Shown: piece after piece, positions 10,175-25,212 of the stretch
How positions within the stretch are numbered: position 1 is the first letter of the stretch
How the letters are laid out: each line of letters starts with the position of its first letter
DNA from: Mucispirillum schaedleri ASF457
GTDB lineage: Bacteria > Chrysiogenota > Deferribacteres > Deferribacterales > Mucispirillaceae
Direction: 5' to 3'
DNA: 64,000 bases
Assembly: GCF_000487995.2 (NCBI RefSeq)
Contig: NZ_CP097562.1
Location: forward strand, 679,001-743,000
Notes under the pieces: model-generated
Told to the model about the DNA's origin: nothing
Database searches by the model: none
The model's input: only the letters and a program-made list of their open reading frames with translations
Made by a program: the position numbers and the translations under genes

Positions 10175-10474
10175 ATGCAGGATTTTTTTATACCTCAGGC
10201 AACTGAAAACGAAATAGCAAAAGAAAAAGCAAAGGCTAGAAAATTAAGAAAAACTAACTGGTGGCATGAAAAAATATCTCATGGAGAATGCTATTACTGT
10301 GGTAAAAATTTTAATCCAAAAGACTTAACAATGGACCATGTAGTGCCATTAATAAGAGGCGGTAAATCAACTAAAAATAATATTGTTCCTGCCTGTAAAG
10401 AGTGCAACAATGTTAAAAAACATAAACTGCCTGTTGAATGGACAGAATATTTAGAAAATATAAAGAAACAATGA
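10175..10474 (+). CDS. HNH endonuclease family protein
   Basis: A 99-residue protein with a compact HNH nuclease fold. Two zinc-binding knuckles (CYYCG and CKEC) flank the catalytic DHVVPLIRGGKSTKNN segment. A charged lysine-rich helix precedes the domain. The ribosome site GGTGG precedes the ATG. Stand-alone HNH proteins of this size serve varied roles, including restriction, phage functions and repair, and nothing adjacent fixes the role here. It stands alone, upstream of the exported-protein family. Confidence 0.85.
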   Translation: MQDFFIPQATENEIAKEKAKARKLRKTNWWHEKISHGECYYCGKNFNPKDLTMDHVVPLIRGGKSTKNNIVPACKECNNVKKHKLPVEWTEYLENIKKQ

Positions 10475-10552: not shown

Positions 10553-11002
10553 ATGAAAAAAATATCATTGTTAGCTTTTCTTTTGATTTTCACTTTTTCT
10601 TATGCTTATGCTGGAGAAAAAGAGTTCTTTCAAGAATCAATGCGGACTATTTTAGAAACTGGTGGTAAAATAAAAAATATTACAGATATTCTTAAACCAA
10701 ATACAAGGCTTTATATATACAAACAGCTTCCAGCTATGAAAGAAACATTATCTACAAGTATAGAAACTATTAATAAAATTAGAACTCAAGCATTAGATGA
10801 AATCAATAATACAACTTTACAGACAGTGCTGCAGGACACTGCTTCTATACAAATTTTAACAATCAATGTTGCAACAGAATTACTTGAAATATATGAAAAT
10901 AATGGAGCTATTACAGAAAGAGAATATAGAAGTGTAGTTTCAAAATATGAAAAAGAAGCAAAAAGACTGCAACGCTCATTAGAAAAATATAAAAATATGT
11001 GA
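10553..11002 (+). CDS. Exported helical protein, family member 1
   Basis: A 149-residue protein with a clear signal peptide (MKKISLLAFLLIFTFSYAYA, cleavage after AYA). The mature part is predicted helical and ends in the motif NGAITEREYRSVVSKYEKEA that recurs in the neighbours. The ATG at 10553 is preferred over the one five codons upstream because the signal peptide then starts MKK and an AGAG lies just before it. It is the first of nine adjacent genes with the same size and helix pattern. Family not recognised; it is probably periplasmic. Confidence 0.75.
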   Translation: MKKISLLAFLLIFTFSYAYAGEKEFFQESMRTILETGGKIKNITDILKPNTRLYIYKQLPAMKETLSTSIETINKIRTQALDEINNTTLQTVLQDTASIQILTINVATELLEIYENNGAITEREYRSVVSKYEKEAKRLQRSLEKYKNM

Positions 11003-11007
11003 TAAAA

Positions 11008-11604
11008 ATGAACGAACAGGAATTTAATCTATCTAAAATAATAGCAGAAGCTGGTGCTAAAAATGCAACAGGTGAAATTAAAAACTTTGCTGATGATATA
11101 GACCTTTTAAGCTCTGGGCTTGAAGCCCGCTTTGAAGATATTAATGACCAGATAGATAAAGTTGTTAAAATGCTTGATATTACAAAATATCAGCTTACAA
11201 GAAACGATGTTTTTAAAATGCGTAATACTTTAAAAAATCTTGAGCATAACTTGACTATTTTAAAAGCAAACTTTGCAGGGCTTAAAACATATAAAATGCG
11301 TGTTTTTATTAACCTTTTAGACAAACAAAACCGTTTTAAAATAGCAAAAGGATATGAAATTATTAAACGATTTTCAGAAAATGAAGCACTTACTTTTCAA
11401 GAGTATAAAGGCATTGTTACAAAATATGAAAAAATAGATGAAAAACTAGGCGAAGAAATTATGGACTGCCTTTACAACCAGTTAAGCAAAGAAGAATATA
11501 GAATGATTTTAAATAAATATGATGATAAAGAACAGACAGTAGGAAAACAGTTTATTAAAACCACTATGCTTGTGCTTGCTCTTGCAGGTGGAATGCAGGA
11601 ATAG
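11008..11604 (+). CDS. Helical protein without signal peptide, family member 2
   Basis: A 198-residue protein, mostly amphipathic helix, lacking the N-terminal signal its neighbours have. It carries the shared C-terminal pattern twice in diverged form (ENEALTFQEYKGIVTKYEK and QLSKEEYRMILNKYDDKE), so it may be an internally duplicated or cytoplasmic member. Its start lies 5 bases after the member 1 stop (a GTG overlapping that stop is an alternative), so the two are probably coupled. A hydrophobic stretch (TTMLVLALAGG) is at the extreme C terminus. Function not recognised. Confidence 0.65.
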   Translation: MNEQEFNLSKIIAEAGAKNATGEIKNFADDIDLLSSGLEARFEDINDQIDKVVKMLDITKYQLTRNDVFKMRNTLKNLEHNLTILKANFAGLKTYKMRVFINLLDKQNRFKIAKGYEIIKRFSENEALTFQEYKGIVTKYEKIDEKLGEEIMDCLYNQLSKEEYRMILNKYDDKEQTVGKQFIKTTMLVLALAGGMQE

Positions 11605-11624
11605 AGTCTTTGCAGGGAGAAAAT

Positions 11625-12119
11625 ATGAAAAAGTATATATATTTTTTACTTTTTATAATGCTGTCTTTTGGAACTGCTTATGCAGATAATAAGAAAGATT
11701 TGTTTGATGATTATGGCATATATACTAAAGAAATGGATGAGCAGATAATAACTGTAAAAAAAGAAGTATATACAGAAATATATAATATAAAAAAACTGAT
11801 GCTTGAAAATAATCAAAAATCAGTTAATGAAAAGCTTAATATTATTCGCAGTAAAATTCAGCAGCTTGATAACTATATAAAAGACAGCAGTAAAACACTA
11901 AAAACAGAAAATATGAAACAAGCTCTTACATATCCTGTATATGAGCTTTCTTTTTATGAAAAAGTAATAAAAGAAACTGCAGGATATTATTATAAAAAAG
12001 GGTCAATTACAAAAAAAGAAATAAAAGAAATTGAAAAAAAATATAAAGACGAAGAAACAGCTGTAAAAAAACAGGCAGAAATTATACGAAATGATTTTTT
12101 TAAAGCTGTTTTTGAGTGA
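11625..12119 (+). CDS. Exported helical protein, family member 3
   Basis: A 164-residue protein with a signal peptide (MKKYIYFLLFIMLSFGTAYA). The lysine-rich helical mature part has the family tail (YYKKGSITKKEIKEIEKKYK). The ATG at 11625 is chosen because a GGGAG ribosome site lies just upstream; the TTG five codons earlier is part of that site. It is 20 bases after member 2. Function not recognised. Confidence 0.75.
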   Translation: MKKYIYFLLFIMLSFGTAYADNKKDLFDDYGIYTKEMDEQIITVKKEVYTEIYNIKKLMLENNQKSVNEKLNIIRSKIQQLDNYIKDSSKTLKTENMKQALTYPVYELSFYEKVIKETAGYYYKKGSITKKEIKEIEKKYKDEETAVKKQAEIIRNDFFKAVFE

Positions 12120-12143
12120 TGTAATAAAAATTTAGGTAAAATA

Positions 12144-12653
12144 ATGAAACGATTTTTAATACTTTTTATATTTTTATTTTCAGTATCAGGAATTTGTTCT
12201 GCAGCATCAGCAAAGTATGATGATATTGTTGCAGAATATATTGTTTACAGAGAAATAGAACAAAAAATTGAAGATGCACTTACAAAAATTGAGAAAATAA
12301 TGATAAAAATAGATAGTGCATCAGAAAGTAAAAACAATAAAGATATAAAAGCAAATATCAAAACAGTTGAAAGTCAAATGAAAGTTGTTGAGAAACAAAT
12401 AAAAGCACAAATAATGAAAATCAAAACAACAGAAGTAAAACAGTATTACGATGTAAAGTTTAGATATTTTCAGCTTTTTAATAACTTTGTAAAAGATACA
12501 GCAGATGTTTTTATTAAAAAAGGAAAAATCAGCGACATTGATAAAGAGACTTTAATAAAAAAATATACTCCACAATTTGATAAACTTAATAAAGAAGATT
12601 TAGAAATATCAGAAGTATTAATGGATATAATACGACCTGAACAATGTGAATAG
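12144..12653 (+). CDS. Exported helical protein, family member 4
   Basis: A 169-residue protein with signal peptide MKRFLILFIFLFSVSGICSA. It is the closest relative of the next gene: both have the central helix EVKxYxxVxxxYxxLxxxF, the tail VFxKKGKxxxxDKExLxxKY and a final I(R/H)P. The spacing (24 bases after member 3) and a TAGGT ribosome site suggest one transcript. A cysteine at the end of the signal (GICSA) does not make a good lipobox. Function not recognised. Confidence 0.75.
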   Translation: MKRFLILFIFLFSVSGICSAASAKYDDIVAEYIVYREIEQKIEDALTKIEKIMIKIDSASESKNNKDIKANIKTVESQMKVVEKQIKAQIMKIKTTEVKQYYDVKFRYFQLFNNFVKDTADVFIKKGKISDIDKETLIKKYTPQFDKLNKEDLEISEVLMDIIRPEQCE

Positions 12654-12668
12654 AATAAGGAGAAAATA

Positions 12669-13190
12669 ATGAAAAAAATTTTAATGTATTTACTTTTAGT
12701 ATTTATTACAGCAGGATTATGTTTTGCTGCCTCATCAAAAGAAGAAATAACACAAGACCTTAATTTATATAACAGCGACATAAACCCAAAAATCGTAGAT
12801 GCTCTTTCTAAAATAGAGCAGGAAATGGTAGAAATTGATAATATCATTGAAGGCAAAAGCAAAAAAGATATTAAAACCATCATAAAAATTGTTGATAACC
12901 AAGTGCAGACTATTGAAAAGCACATGAATGCTCAAGCTCCAAAAATTAAAACTCCAGAAGTTAAAAAATATCATAATGTAACCCTTGCCTACATTAAACT
13001 CCGCAATAATTTCCTAAAAGATGTTGCAGATGTGTTTACAAAAAAAGGCAAAGTAGATGAAAAAGATAAAGAAATTTTAACAAATAAATATGCAGGAGAA
13101 TTTGACAGACTTAATAAAGAAAATGCAGAAGCATTAAAAGTTTTAATGGAAGTTATTCACCCTGCCCCTGCTGGAAATACTGCAAAATAA
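12669..13190 (+). CDS. Exported helical protein, family member 5
   Basis: A 173-residue paralogue of member 4 with signal peptide MKKILMYLLLVFITAGLCFA and a strong AAGGAG ribosome site. The mature region is almost all charged helix (KIVDALSKIEQEMVEIDNII, EVKKYHNVTLAYIKLRNNF, VFTKKGKVDEKDKE). A perfect 12-base-pair hairpin follows the stop, separating members 1-5 from 6-9. Probably periplasmic; function not recognised. Confidence 0.75.
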   Translation: MKKILMYLLLVFITAGLCFAASSKEEITQDLNLYNSDINPKIVDALSKIEQEMVEIDNIIEGKSKKDIKTIIKIVDNQVQTIEKHMNAQAPKIKTPEVKKYHNVTLAYIKLRNNFLKDVADVFTKKGKVDEKDKEILTNKYAGEFDRLNKENAEALKVLMEVIHPAPAGNTAK

Positions 13191-13208
13191 ATGTAACCAG
13201 TTAATATT

Positions 13209-13237
13209 ATGGCTTGAATATTTATTATTCAAGCCAT
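13209..13237 (+). terminator. Hairpin after family member 5
   Basis: ATGGCTTGAATA and its exact complement (13209-13220, 13226-13237) around a 5-base loop, followed by a weak T run. Likely a transcription end or RNA-stability element between the two halves of the family cluster. Confidence 0.6.
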
Positions 13238-13276
13238 ATTCTTTATATAGTAATACTTAAACTATGTGAGGTTGAT

Positions 13277-13879
13277 ATGAAGAAAGCAACTGTTGGTATC
13301 ATAATTTTATTAATTACAGTTATTTGTATTGCTGTCGCTGTTATTTTAACACCAAAAGAAGAAACTGCTGCTAACACTGAAAACTCTCAGCAAAATACTA
13401 ATTATGATGAAGCATATTTAGAATTTAAAAGATATATTACATCTTCTAAAGAATTACAACAAGACACCAAATATTATATAAATCAAATAAGATATGATAT
13501 TGTAAATACTTTTGATACATTAAACCATGAGACAGATGAACTGCTTGATATTATATTTGATAACAAAACTGCTGATATAGAAGAAAAATTAAAATCTATT
13601 AAAAAAGGTGACGCAGAATTATCTGAAAAAATAGATGCAGCAATTAATCAATTTGTAACTGATGATTATAAATCTGCTTTTGCTGCCCTGCAAAAATATA
13701 TGAGCCTGCAAAATCAAATGATTTATAATATTGCAGATATTTATAAAAAAGAAAAAAGTGTAAGCTATGAAATGTTTACTGGCATGCTGCATACAACTCA
13801 TCAGGATATGAGCCAGCAGGAAATAGATTATATAAACTTCTTATCAAGTGTTGATTATTATGCTGATAAAGAAAAATAG
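13277..13879 (+). CDS. Membrane-anchored helical protein, family member 6
   Basis: A 200-residue protein with an uncleaved-looking N-terminal membrane segment (VGIIILLITVICIAVAVIL) followed by a threonine- and asparagine-rich linker, then the helical domain typical of this cluster (YYINQIRYDIVNTFDTLN ... LQNQMIYNIADIYKKEKS). The ATG at 13277 has GAGG upstream; the longer frame from 13214 would start inside the preceding hairpin. Its last 20 bases overlap the next gene, suggesting coupling. Function not recognised. Confidence 0.7.
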   Translation: MKKATVGIIILLITVICIAVAVILTPKEETAANTENSQQNTNYDEAYLEFKRYITSSKELQQDTKYYINQIRYDIVNTFDTLNHETDELLDIIFDNKTADIEEKLKSIKKGDAELSEKIDAAINQFVTDDYKSAFAALQKYMSLQNQMIYNIADIYKKEKSVSYEMFTGMLHTTHQDMSQQEIDYINFLSSVDYYADKEK

Positions 13880-14369
13880 TATAACACTATTAACTTTACT
13901 GCTGATATTTACCATTTCTGCCTGTGCAAAAACTGATAAAATTATGCTGCAGAAAGATATAAGCAGATACTCTGCAATTGAAGAAGAATTAAATATTAAA
14001 ATTAAGCTGATTAATACACAGATGACTTCTACTATTGCAAAATATAAAAGAACGAATGATTTTACACAATTTGAGCTGGATAACAAGCAGATTAATGACG
14101 AACTTTTAAGGCTTCTGCAACTTGCAAAAGAAGTAAATATATATATATCATCAAAGGAAATGAAAAATTATCATAAAATCACGGTTAAACTTATAGAAAT
14201 ACAAGCTGAATATGTAAAAGTTACTATTGAACAGTTTAAAACATTAGGTGAGCATGGTAATAATGATGCAAAATCTACACAGCTTAAATATAACAGAAAA
14301 ATAAGAGCACTGCAAAAACAACAGGATAAACTTTTAGAAGAAATTATAGAAAAAATTTATGAAAAATAA
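13860..14369 (+). CDS. Predicted lipoprotein, family member 7
   Basis: A 169-residue protein whose N terminus reads MLIKKNSITLLTLLLIF and then TISAC, a usable lipobox with cysteine at about residue 22. The mature helical part includes the family's central helix (EMKNYHKITVKLIEIQAEYV). The start overlaps the end of member 6 by 20 bases, so translation is probably coupled, since no good ribosome site is seen. Likely anchored to a membrane facing the periplasm. Function not recognised. Confidence 0.7.
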   Translation: MLIKKNSITLLTLLLIFTISACAKTDKIMLQKDISRYSAIEEELNIKIKLINTQMTSTIAKYKRTNDFTQFELDNKQINDELLRLLQLAKEVNIYISSKEMKNYHKITVKLIEIQAEYVKVTIEQFKTLGEHGNNDAKSTQLKYNRKIRALQKQQDKLLEEIIEKIYEK

Positions 14370-14382
14370 ATGGAGCTTGTTA

Positions 14383-14886
14383 ATGAAAAAAGTATTATTT
14401 TTATTTTTAATATTATTACTTGCAGCTGCATGCAGTAAAAAATTAAACACAATTGAGCAGGATTATTATATAATCATACATGATATTGTTCCATTGCAGG
14501 AGCATTTTGCAAATAAATCTTCAGAGCCTGTATATAAATTAAAAGATGCTCTTGAACAGGGTGCAGAATTTGATGTAGATAAAGCGATAAATGATATAGA
14601 AAAAGTGCAGGCTGATACTAAAAATACTGTTACAGAAAAATCAAAAAATATAAAATCAGATATTGGCAAAAAATATATAAGTATAAAAATGGAATATATT
14701 GACAGTGTATGTAATTTTTCAAAAGGTATGCTTACTAATTTTAAAAACCTGCAGGATAAGTCTATGAAAACATTTATAGAAATCCTTGCAAATGATGTGG
14801 CAGTATCTGGAGAAAAAATAGATAATCTTCTAAAAGAAGAAGCAAGAGTTTTAGACGAAATTAAAAATATGATTGAAAAGAAATAA
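14383..14886 (+). CDS. Predicted lipoprotein, family member 8
   Basis: A 167-residue protein with the textbook lipoprotein signal MKKVLFLFLILLLAAAC (cysteine at residue 17). The helical mature region contains the family's central helix in diverged form (IGKKYISIKMEYIDSVCNF). GGAG precedes the ATG at 14383 by 8 bases; the frame upstream of it overlaps member 7 and is not needed. Function not recognised. Confidence 0.75.
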   Translation: MKKVLFLFLILLLAAACSKKLNTIEQDYYIIIHDIVPLQEHFANKSSEPVYKLKDALEQGAEFDVDKAINDIEKVQADTKNTVTEKSKNIKSDIGKKYISIKMEYIDSVCNFSKGMLTNFKNLQDKSMKTFIEILANDVAVSGEKIDNLLKEEARVLDEIKNMIEKK

Positions 14887-14887
14887 T

Positions 14888-15430
14888 ATGAAATATTTAT
14901 CTGTTTCTGCCTGTTTTATTGTTTTATCATCATGTGCTGCTAAAAATAATACAGCATCTTTTTTGCAGCATGAAAGCAAAAGCACTGATATAAAAGCAGA
15001 ATATACAGAAACAGAGAATAATATTGAAAAATACAAATATCAGTTAGAAGATAAGCTGTTTTTAATAACTAAAAATATTATGGAAGATGAAAAAGAAATT
15101 ACAAAAGCCCTTTCATATAAAAGAATGGTGCGGTTTATAGGCTATATTAAAAAAGAGCTGGATAAATCATTAGAAATTATTGATGAATATCAGAAAAAAA
15201 GCGACAATGCAGAATATCAAAGTCATATAGAATATGTAAAATGCACATACCTTGTAACAAAATCATCATATCTTTATATGGAATCAGTCATTAAAAGTGA
15301 GCAGGAAAACCAGTATATAAAATATCTTGATAAATTTAAAGAGAAACTTAGAAATAATACTGCTGCCATATTCCTAAAAGATATGGAAAAATGCGAACAA
15401 ATTAAAAATATCTACACAAAAAACAGATAA
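14888..15430 (+). CDS. Predicted lipoprotein, family member 9
   Basis: A 180-residue protein with signal MKYLSVSACFIVLSSC (lipobox LSSC) starting one base after the member 8 stop. The mature part is charged helix with the same two-helix layout as its neighbours (YKRMVRFIGYIKKELDKSL; YQSHIEYVKCTYLVTKSSYL), though it is the most diverged. It is last in the cluster and is followed by a promoter for the superoxide reductase gene. Function not recognised. Confidence 0.7.
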   Translation: MKYLSVSACFIVLSSCAAKNNTASFLQHESKSTDIKAEYTETENNIEKYKYQLEDKLFLITKNIMEDEKEITKALSYKRMVRFIGYIKKELDKSLEIIDEYQKKSDNAEYQSHIEYVKCTYLVTKSSYLYMESVIKSEQENQYIKYLDKFKEKLRNNTAAIFLKDMEKCEQIKNIYTKNR

Positions 15431-15506: not shown

Positions 15507-15878
15507 ATGTCTATATCTAACTCTATAAAAACAGCTGATTTTAAAGCAGAAAAACATGTACCAGTTATAAAAGTAGTAAGCCGTGATGGCGATACTGCAG
15601 TTATTGAAGTATCTGTTGGTGCTGAAATTGCACACCCAAATACTACTGAGCATTTTATTGCTTATATTGATTTATATTATAAAGGCGAAGCAGCTATTCA
15701 GCATATTGGCAGAGCAGAGTTTTTAGCTCATGGCGAATCTGCAAAAGGTGCAAATCAAGGTGCACTTCATACTGAACCTGTTGCATTATTTAAATGCAAA
15801 CTTACTGCTTCTGGCGTTCTCCATGCTGTAAGCTACTGCAATATCCATGGCTTATGGGAATCAGAATTAGCAATCTAA
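15507..15878 (+). CDS. Superoxide reductase, neelaredoxin type (class II)
   Basis: A 123-residue iron protein that reduces superoxide to peroxide without releasing oxygen, typical of anaerobes. The non-haem iron ligands are visible: the His of EKHVPVI, the two His of HPNTTEHFIAY, and the Cys and His of SYCNIHGLW. The Lys of EKH, which guides superoxide to the iron, is present. The extra N-terminal rubredoxin-like CxxxC domain of desulfoferrodoxins is absent, hence class II. GGAGG precedes the ATG. It is monocistronic, with its own promoter and terminator. Confidence 0.9.
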   Translation: MSISNSIKTADFKAEKHVPVIKVVSRDGDTAVIEVSVGAEIAHPNTTEHFIAYIDLYYKGEAAIQHIGRAEFLAHGESAKGANQGALHTEPVALFKCKLTASGVLHAVSYCNIHGLWESELAI

Positions 15879-15915
15879 TTTAAATATACAAACTTATTGG
15901 TTTTTTAAGCCTTTG

Positions 15916-15944
15916 GGGTTATTCTTATGAATAACCCTTTTTTT
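15916..15944 (+). terminator. Rho-independent terminator after superoxide reductase
   Basis: GGGTTATTC paired with GAATAACCC around a TTAT loop, followed by seven T residues. Confidence 0.85.
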
Positions 15945-16161: not shown

Positions 16162-16962
16162 CTAAGCCACTAAATAAATTTCTTTTTCCTGTAAAGGTGT
16201 AAGTCCATTAGCTTTTATTCTGTAATTATTATAGAAATCAATATATTTTTCAAGTTCATATTTAAACTGTTCTATATTTTTGAATTTGTTAATATAAACC
16301 AATTCACATTTTAAAGTAGCAAAGAAACTTTCCATAACAGCATTATCATAGCAGTTGCCACGCCTTGACATACTCTGCTCTATATTATTTTCCTTTAATA
16401 ACTTTCTAAATTGATTAGCCTGATATAATATACCCTGGTCTGAATGTATCATTAACCCTGTTGTATCTTTTGTTTTATCTATTGCCTGTTTTAAATTATC
16501 TATTACCATTTCTTCATTATTATATTTGCTTACACTGTATGCTGTTATTTCTCTGTTATACAAATCCATTATTGCTGATAAATACACCTTTTCATTATTA
16601 ATTTTTATCTCTGCCACATCTGTTACCCATTTTAAACATGGTCTCTCACTTGTAAAGGCTCTGTTTAATTTATTGCTGCATATATGACTTACTCTGCCTT
16701 GTTTATACCTTTTCTTAACCCTGATTAGTGATGAAATTTTTAGTTCTTTCATCAATTTATACACTGTCTTCCTGTCATAAGTATAACCCAGTTTCTCTAA
16801 TACCTTTGATATTCTTGGATAACCATAAGTCTTGTTAGATTTTTCATATATTTCTAATATAGATGTCTTGACTTCTGCATATTTATCTAATGCAGCAGGC
16901 TTTTTAACATTATAATAGTAAGTGCTTCTTTTCATATTACTCACAGACAACAGGATATCCAA
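16162..16962 (-). CDS. IS3-family transposase OrfB (DDE catalytic part)
   Basis: A 266-residue integrase-fold transposase. The DDE triad sits in WVTDVAEIKI, MIHSDQGILYQ and NCYDNAVMESFFATLKCE, and the IS150-type N-terminal helix-turn-helix reads NKTYGYPRISKVLEKLGY. The frame continues upstream of the TTG at 16962 into orfA territory (TEKAQIITALRLYYSLD), and orfA ends at an A5G run, so the active protein is probably an OrfAB fusion made by -1 frameshifting, as known for this family. All catalytic residues are present, so the element may be active. Confidence 0.92.
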   Translation of the reverse strand: MDILLSVSNMKRSTYYYNVKKPAALDKYAEVKTSILEIYEKSNKTYGYPRISKVLEKLGYTYDRKTVYKLMKELKISSLIRVKKRYKQGRVSHICSNKLNRAFTSERPCLKWVTDVAEIKINNEKVYLSAIMDLYNREITAYSVSKYNNEEMVIDNLKQAIDKTKDTTGLMIHSDQGILYQANQFRKLLKENNIEQSMSRRGNCYDNAVMESFFATLKCELVYINKFKNIEQFKYELEKYIDFYNNYRIKANGLTPLQEKEIYLVA

Positions 16963-16988
16963 ACTGTAATACAGCCTTAATGCAGTTA

Positions 16989-17546
16989 TTATTTGTGCTT
17001 TTTCTGTTGAACTCTCTGTTCCTTTGACTGCATTAAGGCTTCCAGCTTTTTTAAATATGCATTCTCCGCTGACTTGTAATAAAGCTCTTTTTCAAGCTCT
17101 GATATTCTCTCTTTTAATTGTCTTACTTCTTCACTATCATCTGATTTAGTGAGTTTAATATCAGTAGAGTTTGAGTGTTTACTCTTTTTACTGTTCGGGA
17201 TATTCTTATCTGACATATTATCTCCAATAAACTTACTGCAAAACTTATTCCAGTCATATATTACTGATGCTGATGGTATATTAAAATATAGTGCTGTCTG
17301 CTCATAACTTAAATTATTTGATGCCTTATAAGTTAACACATTTAATTTAAAATCTCTACTATATTCATTGCGGGTAAAGCTATGATGTAAACTTGATTCG
17401 CCTGAATGCTTATATCTGTTATAGATATTACATATTACTCCTTTATGAATTTTACAGCATCTTGATAATTCACTGGCACTCATTATTCCATTTTCTATGA
17501 CTGTTACTAGATATTTCTTAAACTCATAGCTGTATTTTCTTGCCAT
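16989..17546 (-). CDS. IS3-family OrfA (DNA-binding part of transposase)
   Basis: A 185-residue OrfA. It has two helix-turn-helix regions (SASELSRCCKIHKGVICNIY and LSYEQTALYFNIPSASVIYD), then a leucine-zipper coiled coil (EVRQLKERISELEKELYYKS) that in this family mediates multimerisation. It ends QQKKHK at CAG AAA AAG CAC, the likely -1 slip site into orfB. The ATG at 17546 follows AAGGAG by 5 bases. Confidence 0.88.
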   Translation of the reverse strand: MARKYSYEFKKYLVTVIENGIMSASELSRCCKIHKGVICNIYNRYKHSGESSLHHSFTRNEYSRDFKLNVLTYKASNNLSYEQTALYFNIPSASVIYDWNKFCSKFIGDNMSDKNIPNSKKSKHSNSTDIKLTKSDDSEEVRQLKERISELEKELYYKSAENAYLKKLEALMQSKEQRVQQKKHK

Positions 17547-17593
17547 ATACACTCCTTATATGGCTAGTACAACTTTTTCGGGTAAGTTCACCT

Positions 17594-17787: not shown

Positions 17788-19101
17788 TTATTTTTCAGAG
17801 CTCTCTAAATCATTTTCTACTTCTTCTGCCAGATTTTCACCTGCTAATTCTTTATTTTCTGACAAAAATTTATCAAGTTCTTTTTGTGTAACTCTAACAG
17901 CAAGACCCACAATTTCATCCATTTTCTCACCATTTTCTTGTGCATTCTCAATAGCTTTTGTCATAATTTTCCAGAAAAAAGTATCTAAATTTTTAACACC
18001 GTTAATAAATGAATCATTTACTTCCCCTTTTGTTTGGTTCATATAAGGTATAAGCACTGCCTGTGCAGTATGAGTGAAAAATTTAAATTCTTCATCTGAT
18101 GGGCTGATACCTTTTGAAAATTCATCAATAACAGAATGCATACCGTCCCTAAATGATGTAATTTGAGAAGCAATATCCCAAAAAGCTTTTGCAGGGTCTT
18201 TTGGACGGTTTCCACCAAGTTTTGTATCAAGCTCTGCAACAGTCTGTCTGATAGGAAACATTACATTATCATACTTATCAACAATCGTCTGCACAGGTAT
18301 AACACTGCCTTTTCTAACATTTCCAGTAACAACTGTAAGCACAGCATTATATTTGACATATACCCTTGTGCCGTTTTCCATAGCAACATCTGCTAAGGCT
18401 TTTATCATTTTGCCAAAAGCAGATGCATCAATTGCTTCAAAAAACTTACGCATACGCAGAAGTGCCAGTTTTGTATCTTTCATAAATGGAATAATTTCTT
18501 TAACATACTCTCTTTGCAGTTTATTAATAGATTTACCCATTATATATTCAAAATGATGCAGTTTATCTCTAAAATCATTAAGTTTTATATAAATAATTTT
18601 AGCTTTTGCATTTACAGAATACTGCTGCATTAAGAAAAACCATTTATCAAGATAGTTTTTAATAGTTTTTAATGTAGTTCTAGGAACAATGGATTTTGCT
18701 TCCTGGTCTTCAGAAACATACATTGCAAACTTTTCTTTATGCATAGGAAAATAGTTTGTTTTAGATTCTAAACAGGTTTGACCTATGCGTTCCATATATA
18801 TAGCAGAAACAGTTGTGAGTTTATGAGCAAGTGCACCTTCTTCAGCATCCCCTAGTTTATTAAAAGCATCATCCATAAGTTTGGATATGTCACCTAAATC
18901 ATCAAGAAAATTACGCTTTGATTCTGTTTTTTTATCAGCTGGGTCAATACCAGTAAAACCATCTATCAGCTTTTCATAGTTAGGGTTGTCTTTTAAAAAT
19001 GCAACAAGAGACATTCTTAAACCTTTTCTAACATTTCCATATTTAGTTTCCAGTTCTTTACACTTCTCAGCCTTTAATACTTCATCTGCTATCATTGCCA
19101 T
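17788..19101 (-). CDS. Hypothetical helical protein
   Basis: A 437-residue protein I do not recognise. It has no signal peptide, membrane segment or cysteine-rich region, and looks mostly helical, with a hydrophilic acid-rich C terminus (ENLAEEVENDLESSEK). Motif-like segments include NYLDKWFFLMQQYSVNAKAK, RMRKFFEAIDASAFGKMIKA and KLGGNRPKDPAKAFWDIA. The ATG at 19101 follows AGGGG by 9 bases. Its codon use looks like that of the surrounding genes. It stands alone between the IS and the binding-protein gene; a cytoplasmic location is likely. Confidence 0.8.
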   Translation of the reverse strand: MAMIADEVLKAEKCKELETKYGNVRKGLRMSLVAFLKDNPNYEKLIDGFTGIDPADKKTESKRNFLDDLGDISKLMDDAFNKLGDAEEGALAHKLTTVSAIYMERIGQTCLESKTNYFPMHKEKFAMYVSEDQEAKSIVPRTTLKTIKNYLDKWFFLMQQYSVNAKAKIIYIKLNDFRDKLHHFEYIMGKSINKLQREYVKEIIPFMKDTKLALLRMRKFFEAIDASAFGKMIKALADVAMENGTRVYVKYNAVLTVVTGNVRKGSVIPVQTIVDKYDNVMFPIRQTVAELDTKLGGNRPKDPAKAFWDIASQITSFRDGMHSVIDEFSKGISPSDEEFKFFTHTAQAVLIPYMNQTKGEVNDSFINGVKNLDTFFWKIMTKAIENAQENGEKMDEIVGLAVRVTQKELDKFLSENKELAGENLAEEVENDLESSEK

Positions 19102-24134: not shown

Positions 24135-24677
24135 ATGAAAAAATTAATATTATCCAGCCTTTTAATAATAATCTTTTGTTCTGCTGGATTTGCACAAAAA
24201 AGCAGATATGCAGGAGTTCCTGTGCCTATATCATTAACAAACCCATTAAGCTTTAACGGCACTTATAAAGTAGAAAGGTTAATTATTAGAAACAGCGATA
24301 ATACACTGCTTGATTCCAGCAACAGTTATGATGTATATGATGATAAAGGTATTGCAACAATCAATATGAAAATAAGCCAGAATAATGTTGCTGTTGATTT
24401 AATATATAAAATGCAGATGGTAGGTCCTGCTTTTAAACGGGCAGAAATATCTAATTATTCTTTTTTGTATGACAGCCAGACTTTTACAGCACAAAGACCA
24501 TCTGGCACATCACTTTCCAGTGCTCTTTCCTCAATAGGTATGACAATATATGACCATGAAGACTTAATATGGGAAATGCCGTTTGAAAAAGGATATACTC
24601 TTATTTTAAAACTGGAAAAGAAAAACGATATTTCTACTATAATAGATAAAAAGCCTTTTATAATTATTGAGGAATAA
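24135..24677 (+). CDS. Exported hypothetical protein, paralogue 1
   Basis: A 180-residue protein with signal peptide MKKLILSSLLIIIFCSAGFA. The mature part is predicted mainly beta, and contains SFNGTYKVERLIIRNSD, MKISQNNVAVDLIYKMQM and LIWEMPFEKGYTLILKLE. The same three elements recur in order in the following gene, so the two are tandem duplicates. Probably periplasmic, lipocalin- or META-like in size, but no family is recognised. GGAG precedes the ATG. Confidence 0.75.
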   Translation: MKKLILSSLLIIIFCSAGFAQKSRYAGVPVPISLTNPLSFNGTYKVERLIIRNSDNTLLDSSNSYDVYDDKGIATINMKISQNNVAVDLIYKMQMVGPAFKRAEISNYSFLYDSQTFTAQRPSGTSLSSALSSIGMTIYDHEDLIWEMPFEKGYTLILKLEKKNDISTIIDKKPFIIIEE

Positions 24678-24678
24678 T

Positions 24679-25212
24679 ATGCATGTTATTTTAATACTTC
24701 TTGTAATGCTGGCAAACTATACTTTTGCTTTTGCAGAAATTTCTGAGCCTATGACAATAAATATTATAGAAAATCCTGTAAGTCTTAACGGCACTTATGA
24801 AATAGAAAGGTTTGTCATATTAAAAGATAAGCGAATATTTATAGATTCAGATGATAAAAACTCTATTACAGGCAGCAAAGGTCAAGTAACTATTGATTTA
24901 AATATTACAGGCAATATTATTAATTCCACATTAAAAATGCAGATGAAAGGCAATATTTTTGAAGAAGGCTCAGCTTTTGCAGGATATGACTTTATTTACT
25001 CCACAAGAGTTATACCAATGCCTGCAGATAATAAAAAAAATAAAGTAAATTTAGAAGATAAAATTTCTGCCATAGGTCTGCATTATTATAAAAATGAAAA
25101 CAGGGTTATATGGGAAATACCTTTTGAGCAGGATAAAATTATTATTATGATACTTGATAAAACAAGTAATAAAATAAAAAATCTTTCTCATTCAAAATAT
25201 ATGTTTTTATAA
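24679..25212 (+). CDS. Exported hypothetical protein, paralogue 2
   Basis: A 177-residue paralogue of the preceding gene, starting one base after its stop. It has a signal peptide (MHVILILLVMLANYTFAFA) and the shared elements SLNGTYEIERFVILKDK, LNITGNIINSTLKMQM and VIWEIPFEQDKIIIMIL. The ATG at 24679 is preferred over a TTG at 24667 because GAGGA lies just upstream of it. Function not recognised. Confidence 0.75.
   Translation: MHVILILLVMLANYTFAFAEISEPMTINIIENPVSLNGTYEIERFVILKDKRIFIDSDDKNSITGSKGQVTIDLNITGNIINSTLKMQMKGNIFEEGSAFAGYDFIYSTRVIPMPADNKKNKVNLEDKISAIGLHYYKNENRVIWEIPFEQDKIIIMILDKTSNKIKNLSHSKYMFL

Follow-up and report, generated by a model that had tools for sequence, protein, structure and literature searches.

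Eight of the nine small proteins encoded by a compact gene array of Mucispirillum are, on the evidence of controlled profile comparisons, old duplicates that share one ancestor. We propose, with a probability of about 0.4, that this Mucispirillum-specific operon encodes a hetero-oligomeric envelope scaffold, in which paralogous four-helix bundles and the ninth protein would come together in a complex.

The array was studied in a window of 64,000 nucleotides (the whole stretch of DNA that was analysed), which is part of a 2.35-Mb single-contig genome. It consists of nine co-directional, tightly packed open reading frames of 149-200 amino acids each at positions 10553-15430 of the plus strand. 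All nine, called as consecutive genes in the original prediction, were confirmed. The genes and elements considered here are the following:

10175..10474, plus strand: HNH-nuclease-family gene, 99 aa (PF14279/PF01844 above cut-off)
10553..11002, plus strand: member 1, Sec signal peptide, predicted periplasmic, 149 aa
11008..11604, plus strand: member 2, signal-less, probably cytoplasmic, 198 aa
11625..12119, plus strand: member 3, Sec signal peptide, predicted periplasmic
12144..12653, plus strand: member 4, Sec signal peptide, a young or fast-evolving copy of member 5
12669..13190, plus strand: member 5, Sec signal peptide, predicted four-helix bundle
13208..13238, plus strand: hairpin with a 13-bp stem, between members 5 and 6
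13277..13879, plus strand: member 6, predicted N-terminal transmembrane anchor and periplasmic domain
13860..14369, plus strand: member 7, predicted lipoprotein (ISAC-A)
14383..14886, plus strand: member 8, predicted lipoprotein (AAAC-S), gene turnover at this position
14888..15430, plus strand: member 9, predicted lipoprotein (LSSC-A), last gene in every array
15507..15878, plus strand: superoxide reductase of the desulfoferrodoxin family (PF01880, 93.7 bits), possibly co-transcribed
15915..15938, plus strand: terminator-like hairpin with a T-run, 3' of the superoxide reductase gene, end of the unit

The intergenic spacing within this array ranges from -20 to +86 nt. Across the genus the gaps measure -23 to +34 nt, except near lost or extra copies and after member 5, where the gap is 22-164 nt. 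Signal peptides, anchor and lipoboxes were assigned by inspection and not with a signal-peptide program, and the start sites and signals (four Sec signal peptides, three lipoboxes, one anchor and one protein with none) agree with those described before. The signal peptides of members 1, 3, 4 and 5 end in A-x-A or similar, the lipoboxes of members 7, 8 and 9 read ISAC, AAAC and LSSC, and the signal type of each member is constant among its orthologs in the genus. Members 7, 8 and 9 are predicted to be lipid-anchored, probably in the outer membrane. Besides the lipobox cysteine, C119 and C169 of member 9 are invariant, a pair that suggests a periplasmic disulfide.

Exported proteins resemble each other through their signal peptides, and hence kinship was assessed on the mature parts alone, using leave-one-group-out HMMs with shuffled and reversed sequences as controls. 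Members 1, 3, 4, 5, 6 and 7 outscored every shuffled control (for member 1, 16.7-25.5 bits against a shuffled maximum of 5.1). With member 8, 7 of 11 sequences beat all shuffles and the remainder fell below the best shuffle. Member 2 was borderline with the core-family profile; with an HMM of members 1 and 3 it reached 17.9-23.6 bits, the best of 500 shuffles reaching 13.7 and the best reversed sequence 0.3. It aligns collinearly with the family over 111 columns, a match that is weak on its own (E 0.0046). Member 2 also carries an extension (residues about 145-183), lacking in the other members, that repeats the family's C-terminal E-Y-x4-6-KY motif, and this second copy was likewise picked up by the HMM of members 1 and 3. 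Profile-profile comparison linked members 3, 4, 5, 6, 7 and 8 over 60-134 columns and connected members 1, 2 and 3 via the C-terminal hairpin; the linked pairs scored 34-206, whereas column-shuffled profiles reached at most 21.6. Member 9 scored between -10 and -0.7 with the HMMs, within the control range, and obtained an hhalign probability of 1.7%. The earlier view of nine proteins of one fold, with low pairwise identity except between members 4 and 5, is therefore right about the identities and holds as one family for members 1 to 8; since member 9 is undetectable in the family tests, we speak of eight, plus one. Member 9 would be either an unrelated lipoprotein or a relative that has diverged past recognition.

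As had been predicted, no known family accounts for these proteins: searches of Pfam, NCBIfam, PADLOC, PHROGs and the PDB gave no convincing match. None of the members reached the cut-off of a Pfam family. The weak sub-cut-off matches scattered over the sequence libraries are expected from lysine-rich helical sequences. One candidate, the VirB5-like family (PF07996), was discarded, as it matched member 4 only, at 21.3 bits against a cut-off of 24.7, and 1 of the 52 family sequences. With the family as query, a PDB sequence search retrieved nothing beyond apolipoproteins, coiled coils and designed bundles, all at E 0.004 or worse, and with member 2 it gave zero matches. Rfam gave no match, and literature searches turned up neither a description of the array genes nor data on their expression or localisation. 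A mobile origin was also considered and set aside, member 5 being unmatched in phages and member 2 in plasmids and viral contigs; the GC content of the array is in the range of the other window genes. Members 1 to 8 are a new orphan family with an unusual anatomy, and to call them a machine would exceed the evidence. Elsewhere in the window, at 24135-24677 and 24667-25212 (plus strand), two adjacent genes encode exported proteins, each about 180 aa long. The two proteins are mutual paralogs, share the motifs NGTY.[VI]ER.[IV]I and [IV]WE.PFE, and have no Pfam match, which makes them another small group of duplicated, exported orphans.

The fold was predicted with AlphaFold2 from the 52 family sequences for member 5, with a mean pLDDT of 82.9 and a pTM of 0.78. 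The model consists of four long antiparallel helices (residues 21-60, 68-92, 96-126 and 131-163), and the prediction for member 5, which is of good confidence, is thus an antiparallel four-helix bundle and not the two-helix hairpin that had been anticipated. The shared motifs noticed at the outset fit this model: the conserved KT motif sits at the turn that joins helix 2 to helix 3, and the turn into helix 4, with the start of that helix, holds the G-x-[IV]...KY tail. The model of member 2, from ten near-identical sequences, is poor (pLDDT 47.7); at that low confidence its helices (23-58, 65-89, 95-123 and 130-156) have the same layout as in member 5. A search of solved structures with the fold yielded generic bundles only. 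According to the guidance of the structure-search tool, a Z under about 13 between helical bundles may mean a common arrangement only.

The presence of the array in related genomes, a check proposed with the original prediction, was then established: it occurs in 10 of 10 Mucispirillum genomes examined, at one locus each and in the same order, and 41 other genomes of the phylum gave no convincing match to the family, to member 2 or to member 9. Matches obtained in other genomes with full-length profiles were discarded, as they were mostly to signal peptides. With mature-part profiles, the best match outside the genus (E 0.001 over 48 residues, within larger proteins) was unconvincing. A scan of a large genome collection, done with one protein only, found three Mucispirillum contigs, with member 5 copies 84-88% identical. 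Within the genomes searched, the array is restricted to Mucispirillum.

Wherever the contig extends that far, the array is flanked by the HNH gene on one side and the superoxide reductase gene on the other. Among 46 genomes of the order, 44 have the HNH gene in single copy, array-less ones included, and 43 have the superoxide reductase gene. As both are nearly universal in the order, also where there is no array, they are ancestral neighbours, and the HNH gene is probably outside the system. The sister genus g3 has alaS, the HNH gene, pckA and the superoxide reductase gene with no array, and in g2, also devoid of the array, the HNH and superoxide reductase genes lie apart. Because these neighbours are present without the array, the array arose or arrived at this site in the Mucispirillum stem. 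Just downstream of the superoxide reductase gene, the window carries an IS3-type transposase pair (16162-17552, minus strand), and those loci of the genus that extend past this gene have other genes in its place. The gene at 17788-19101 (minus strand) codes for a 437-aa protein whose best Pfam match is below the cut-off.

In a tree built from 71 mature sequences, the members fall into separate clades, each with a long stem and short tips. The stems measure 1.9-2.9 changes per site for members 1, 2, 3, 6 and 7; member 4 is nested in the member 5 group, and the clade of member 8 is less strongly supported. The long branches make the order of the duplications unsure, and as read from the tree the main duplications are older than the radiation of the genus. 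The median dN/dS over the same close genome pairs was 0.05 for member 2, 0.12 for member 1, 0.14 for members 5 and 7, 0.17 for member 8, 0.18 for member 9, 0.26 for member 3, 0.31 for member 6 and 0.46 for member 4. A pooled value of 0.72 for member 8 was rejected as an artefact of mixed non-orthologous copies. The neighbouring HNH and superoxide reductase genes gave 0.09-0.10, and the signal-less member 2, which is ∼90% identical across the genus, is hence the most constrained member, about level with these housekeeping neighbours. No sign of positive selection was seen at the level of whole genes. Separate long-stem clades and low dN/dS values indicate that duplication took place early and that the copies have been maintained in place since.

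Some positions of the array are less stable. Member 4 is present in only 2 of the 10 genomes, and position 8 is occupied by different copies in different species. In one genome (G005), member 3 is reduced to a remnant and the copy at position 8 is broken (L040, 4965-5256 and 7479-8102), which may reflect gene loss or an error of the draft assembly; some genomes are drafts, so that individual gene breaks may be assembly errors. Since genomes can lack members 3, 4 and 8 or carry a substitute, some parts of the array are dispensable.

The original prediction had offered two readings of the different cell locations, a multi-layer envelope system or rapidly diversifying surface proteins. The locations are conserved for each member, and such differences would fit the former. 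The latter is contradicted by separate ortholog clades, by dN/dS values of 0.05-0.46, by the fixed order and by the constraint on member 2. A related explanation is that the exported paralogs each bind host or mucus ligands alone, as in the PFam54 family of Borrelia, some being one-to-one and others variable in number. In PFam54, the orthologs of clades I, II, III and V correspond one-to-one, and the number of clade IV genes varies (PMC11109050). The confinement of a low-identity array of exported paralogs to one host-associated genus, and the turnover at position 8 and of member 4, speak for such a function. However, the apparent location of four or five members is the periplasm or the cytoplasm and not the cell surface, the most conserved member lacks a signal, and in place of diversifying selection and high copy-number variation most members are one-to-one orthologs with no gene-level positive selection. 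We consider independent ligand binders of this kind unlikely, if still worth bearing in mind.

Immunity proteins are often small, exported and clustered, and the array could in principle confer immunity or exclusion against periplasm-delivered toxins, phages or conjugation, the location of each member being matched to the site of attack. T6SS and T4ASS genes have been reported in Mucispirillum (PMC5285517). Nevertheless, the same set is conserved genus-wide at one locus under purifying selection, no toxin genes adjoin the array in the ten genomes, and neither PADLOC or PHROGs matches nor phage or plasmid relatives of the members searched were obtained, which makes an immunity function very improbable.

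The array genes are presumably co-transcribed. The gap between members 5 and 6 contains a stable fold in 8 of 10 genomes, with z values of -2.5 to -5.0 relative to dinucleotide shuffles, whereas two other gaps of the same genomes have no hairpin (z +1.1 to -1.8). In five genomes the stem is identical save for one C-G to T-A change, which is matched on both sides, and three other genomes have an unrelated stem at the same place. The element is either an intra-operon RNA structure or a DNA palindrome, the latter being possible because 10 of the 11 stem pairs never vary in the main sequence type. On one side of it lie members 1-5, which are soluble, and on the other members 6-9, which are membrane-anchored. 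In E. coli, conserved RNA structures protect parts of transcripts and alter gene ratios within an operon (PMC5927463); by analogy, the hairpin might alter subunit ratios here.

The superoxide reductase gene lies 76 nt 3' of the array, ahead of the first clear terminator, and its co-transcription would point to oxidative stress. Together with the soluble periplasmic bundles and their generic structural likeness to the ligand-binding four-helix bundles of chemoreceptors, this raises the idea of independent periplasmic helpers, chaperone-like or ligand-sensing, that are co-expressed and act in parallel in folding or stress tolerance. This idea seems doubtful to us, however, in view of the ancestral status of the HNH and superoxide reductase genes as neighbours in genomes without the array, and of structural Z scores that lie within the noise of helical bundles.

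Distinct copies, fixed locations, fixed order and purifying selection make a set of specialised parts, rather than a reservoir of variants, the best reading of the array, and the retention of distinct, non-exchanged copies argues for a division of labour. We favour a heteromeric scaffold because it best explains the joint retention of the members and their mixed locations. One ancestral exported bundle would have been duplicated before the known Mucispirillum species split, and the copies would have become fixed by compartment: member 2 in the cytoplasm, members 1, 3 and 5 (and 4 in some genomes) in the periplasm, member 6 with an inner-membrane anchor, and members 7, 8 and 9 with a lipid anchor, probably in the outer membrane. 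The soluble bundles 1-5 would pack between the inner-membrane partner and the lipoproteins, and the hairpin after gene 5 may allow the soluble subunits to be produced in amounts unlike those of the anchored ones. Against a complex, the signal-less member 2 may never meet the other members, the members could have separate jobs, and member 9 has no recognisable relation to the family. The fuller version of the proposal, a trans-envelope assembly built from one four-helix-bundle fold retargeted to cytoplasm, inner membrane, periplasm and outer membrane, is speculative and on present grounds rather unlikely.

Orphan genes are usually single, and here a whole genus-specific operon, with members 1-8 from one ancestor, keeps each copy in its own predicted compartment across Mucispirillum. 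If the members form a complex, the array would illustrate how one fold can give a lineage a new envelope structure. The genus dwells in the mucus of the gut and has been linked to inflammation in mouse models (PMC5285517), and a genus-defining envelope system is for that reason a reasonable place to seek its special traits.

Among solved structures, the top score was obtained with LntA of Listeria (PDB 2xl4), also a secreted helical protein (Z 10.6, rmsd 4.5 over 130 residues); but identity is 7%, the TM-score 0.39 and Z below about 13, and the array proteins carry no evidence of action on host cells. PDB 2ap3, a Staphylococcus aureus protein of unknown function, is a helical bundle too (Z 9.6, rmsd 3.8 over 144 residues), but with 10% identity, a Z below about 13 and no sequence match. 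The ligand-binding domains of the chemoreceptors Tar, Tsr and Vc1313 have in common with the array proteins a periplasmic antiparallel four-helix topology, at a Z of about 7.5 that is tied with unrelated and designed bundles; the array proteins differ in that they stand alone, without transmembrane or signalling parts, and match at E 0.1 or weaker with no Pfam match. In its layout, the array resembles Borrelia PFam54, where diverged exported paralogs likewise stand in tandem in a single genus, some forming a one-to-one core and others varying, and it differs in that its members bear differing export signals (one having none), form a chromosomal operon and evolve under strong purifying selection.
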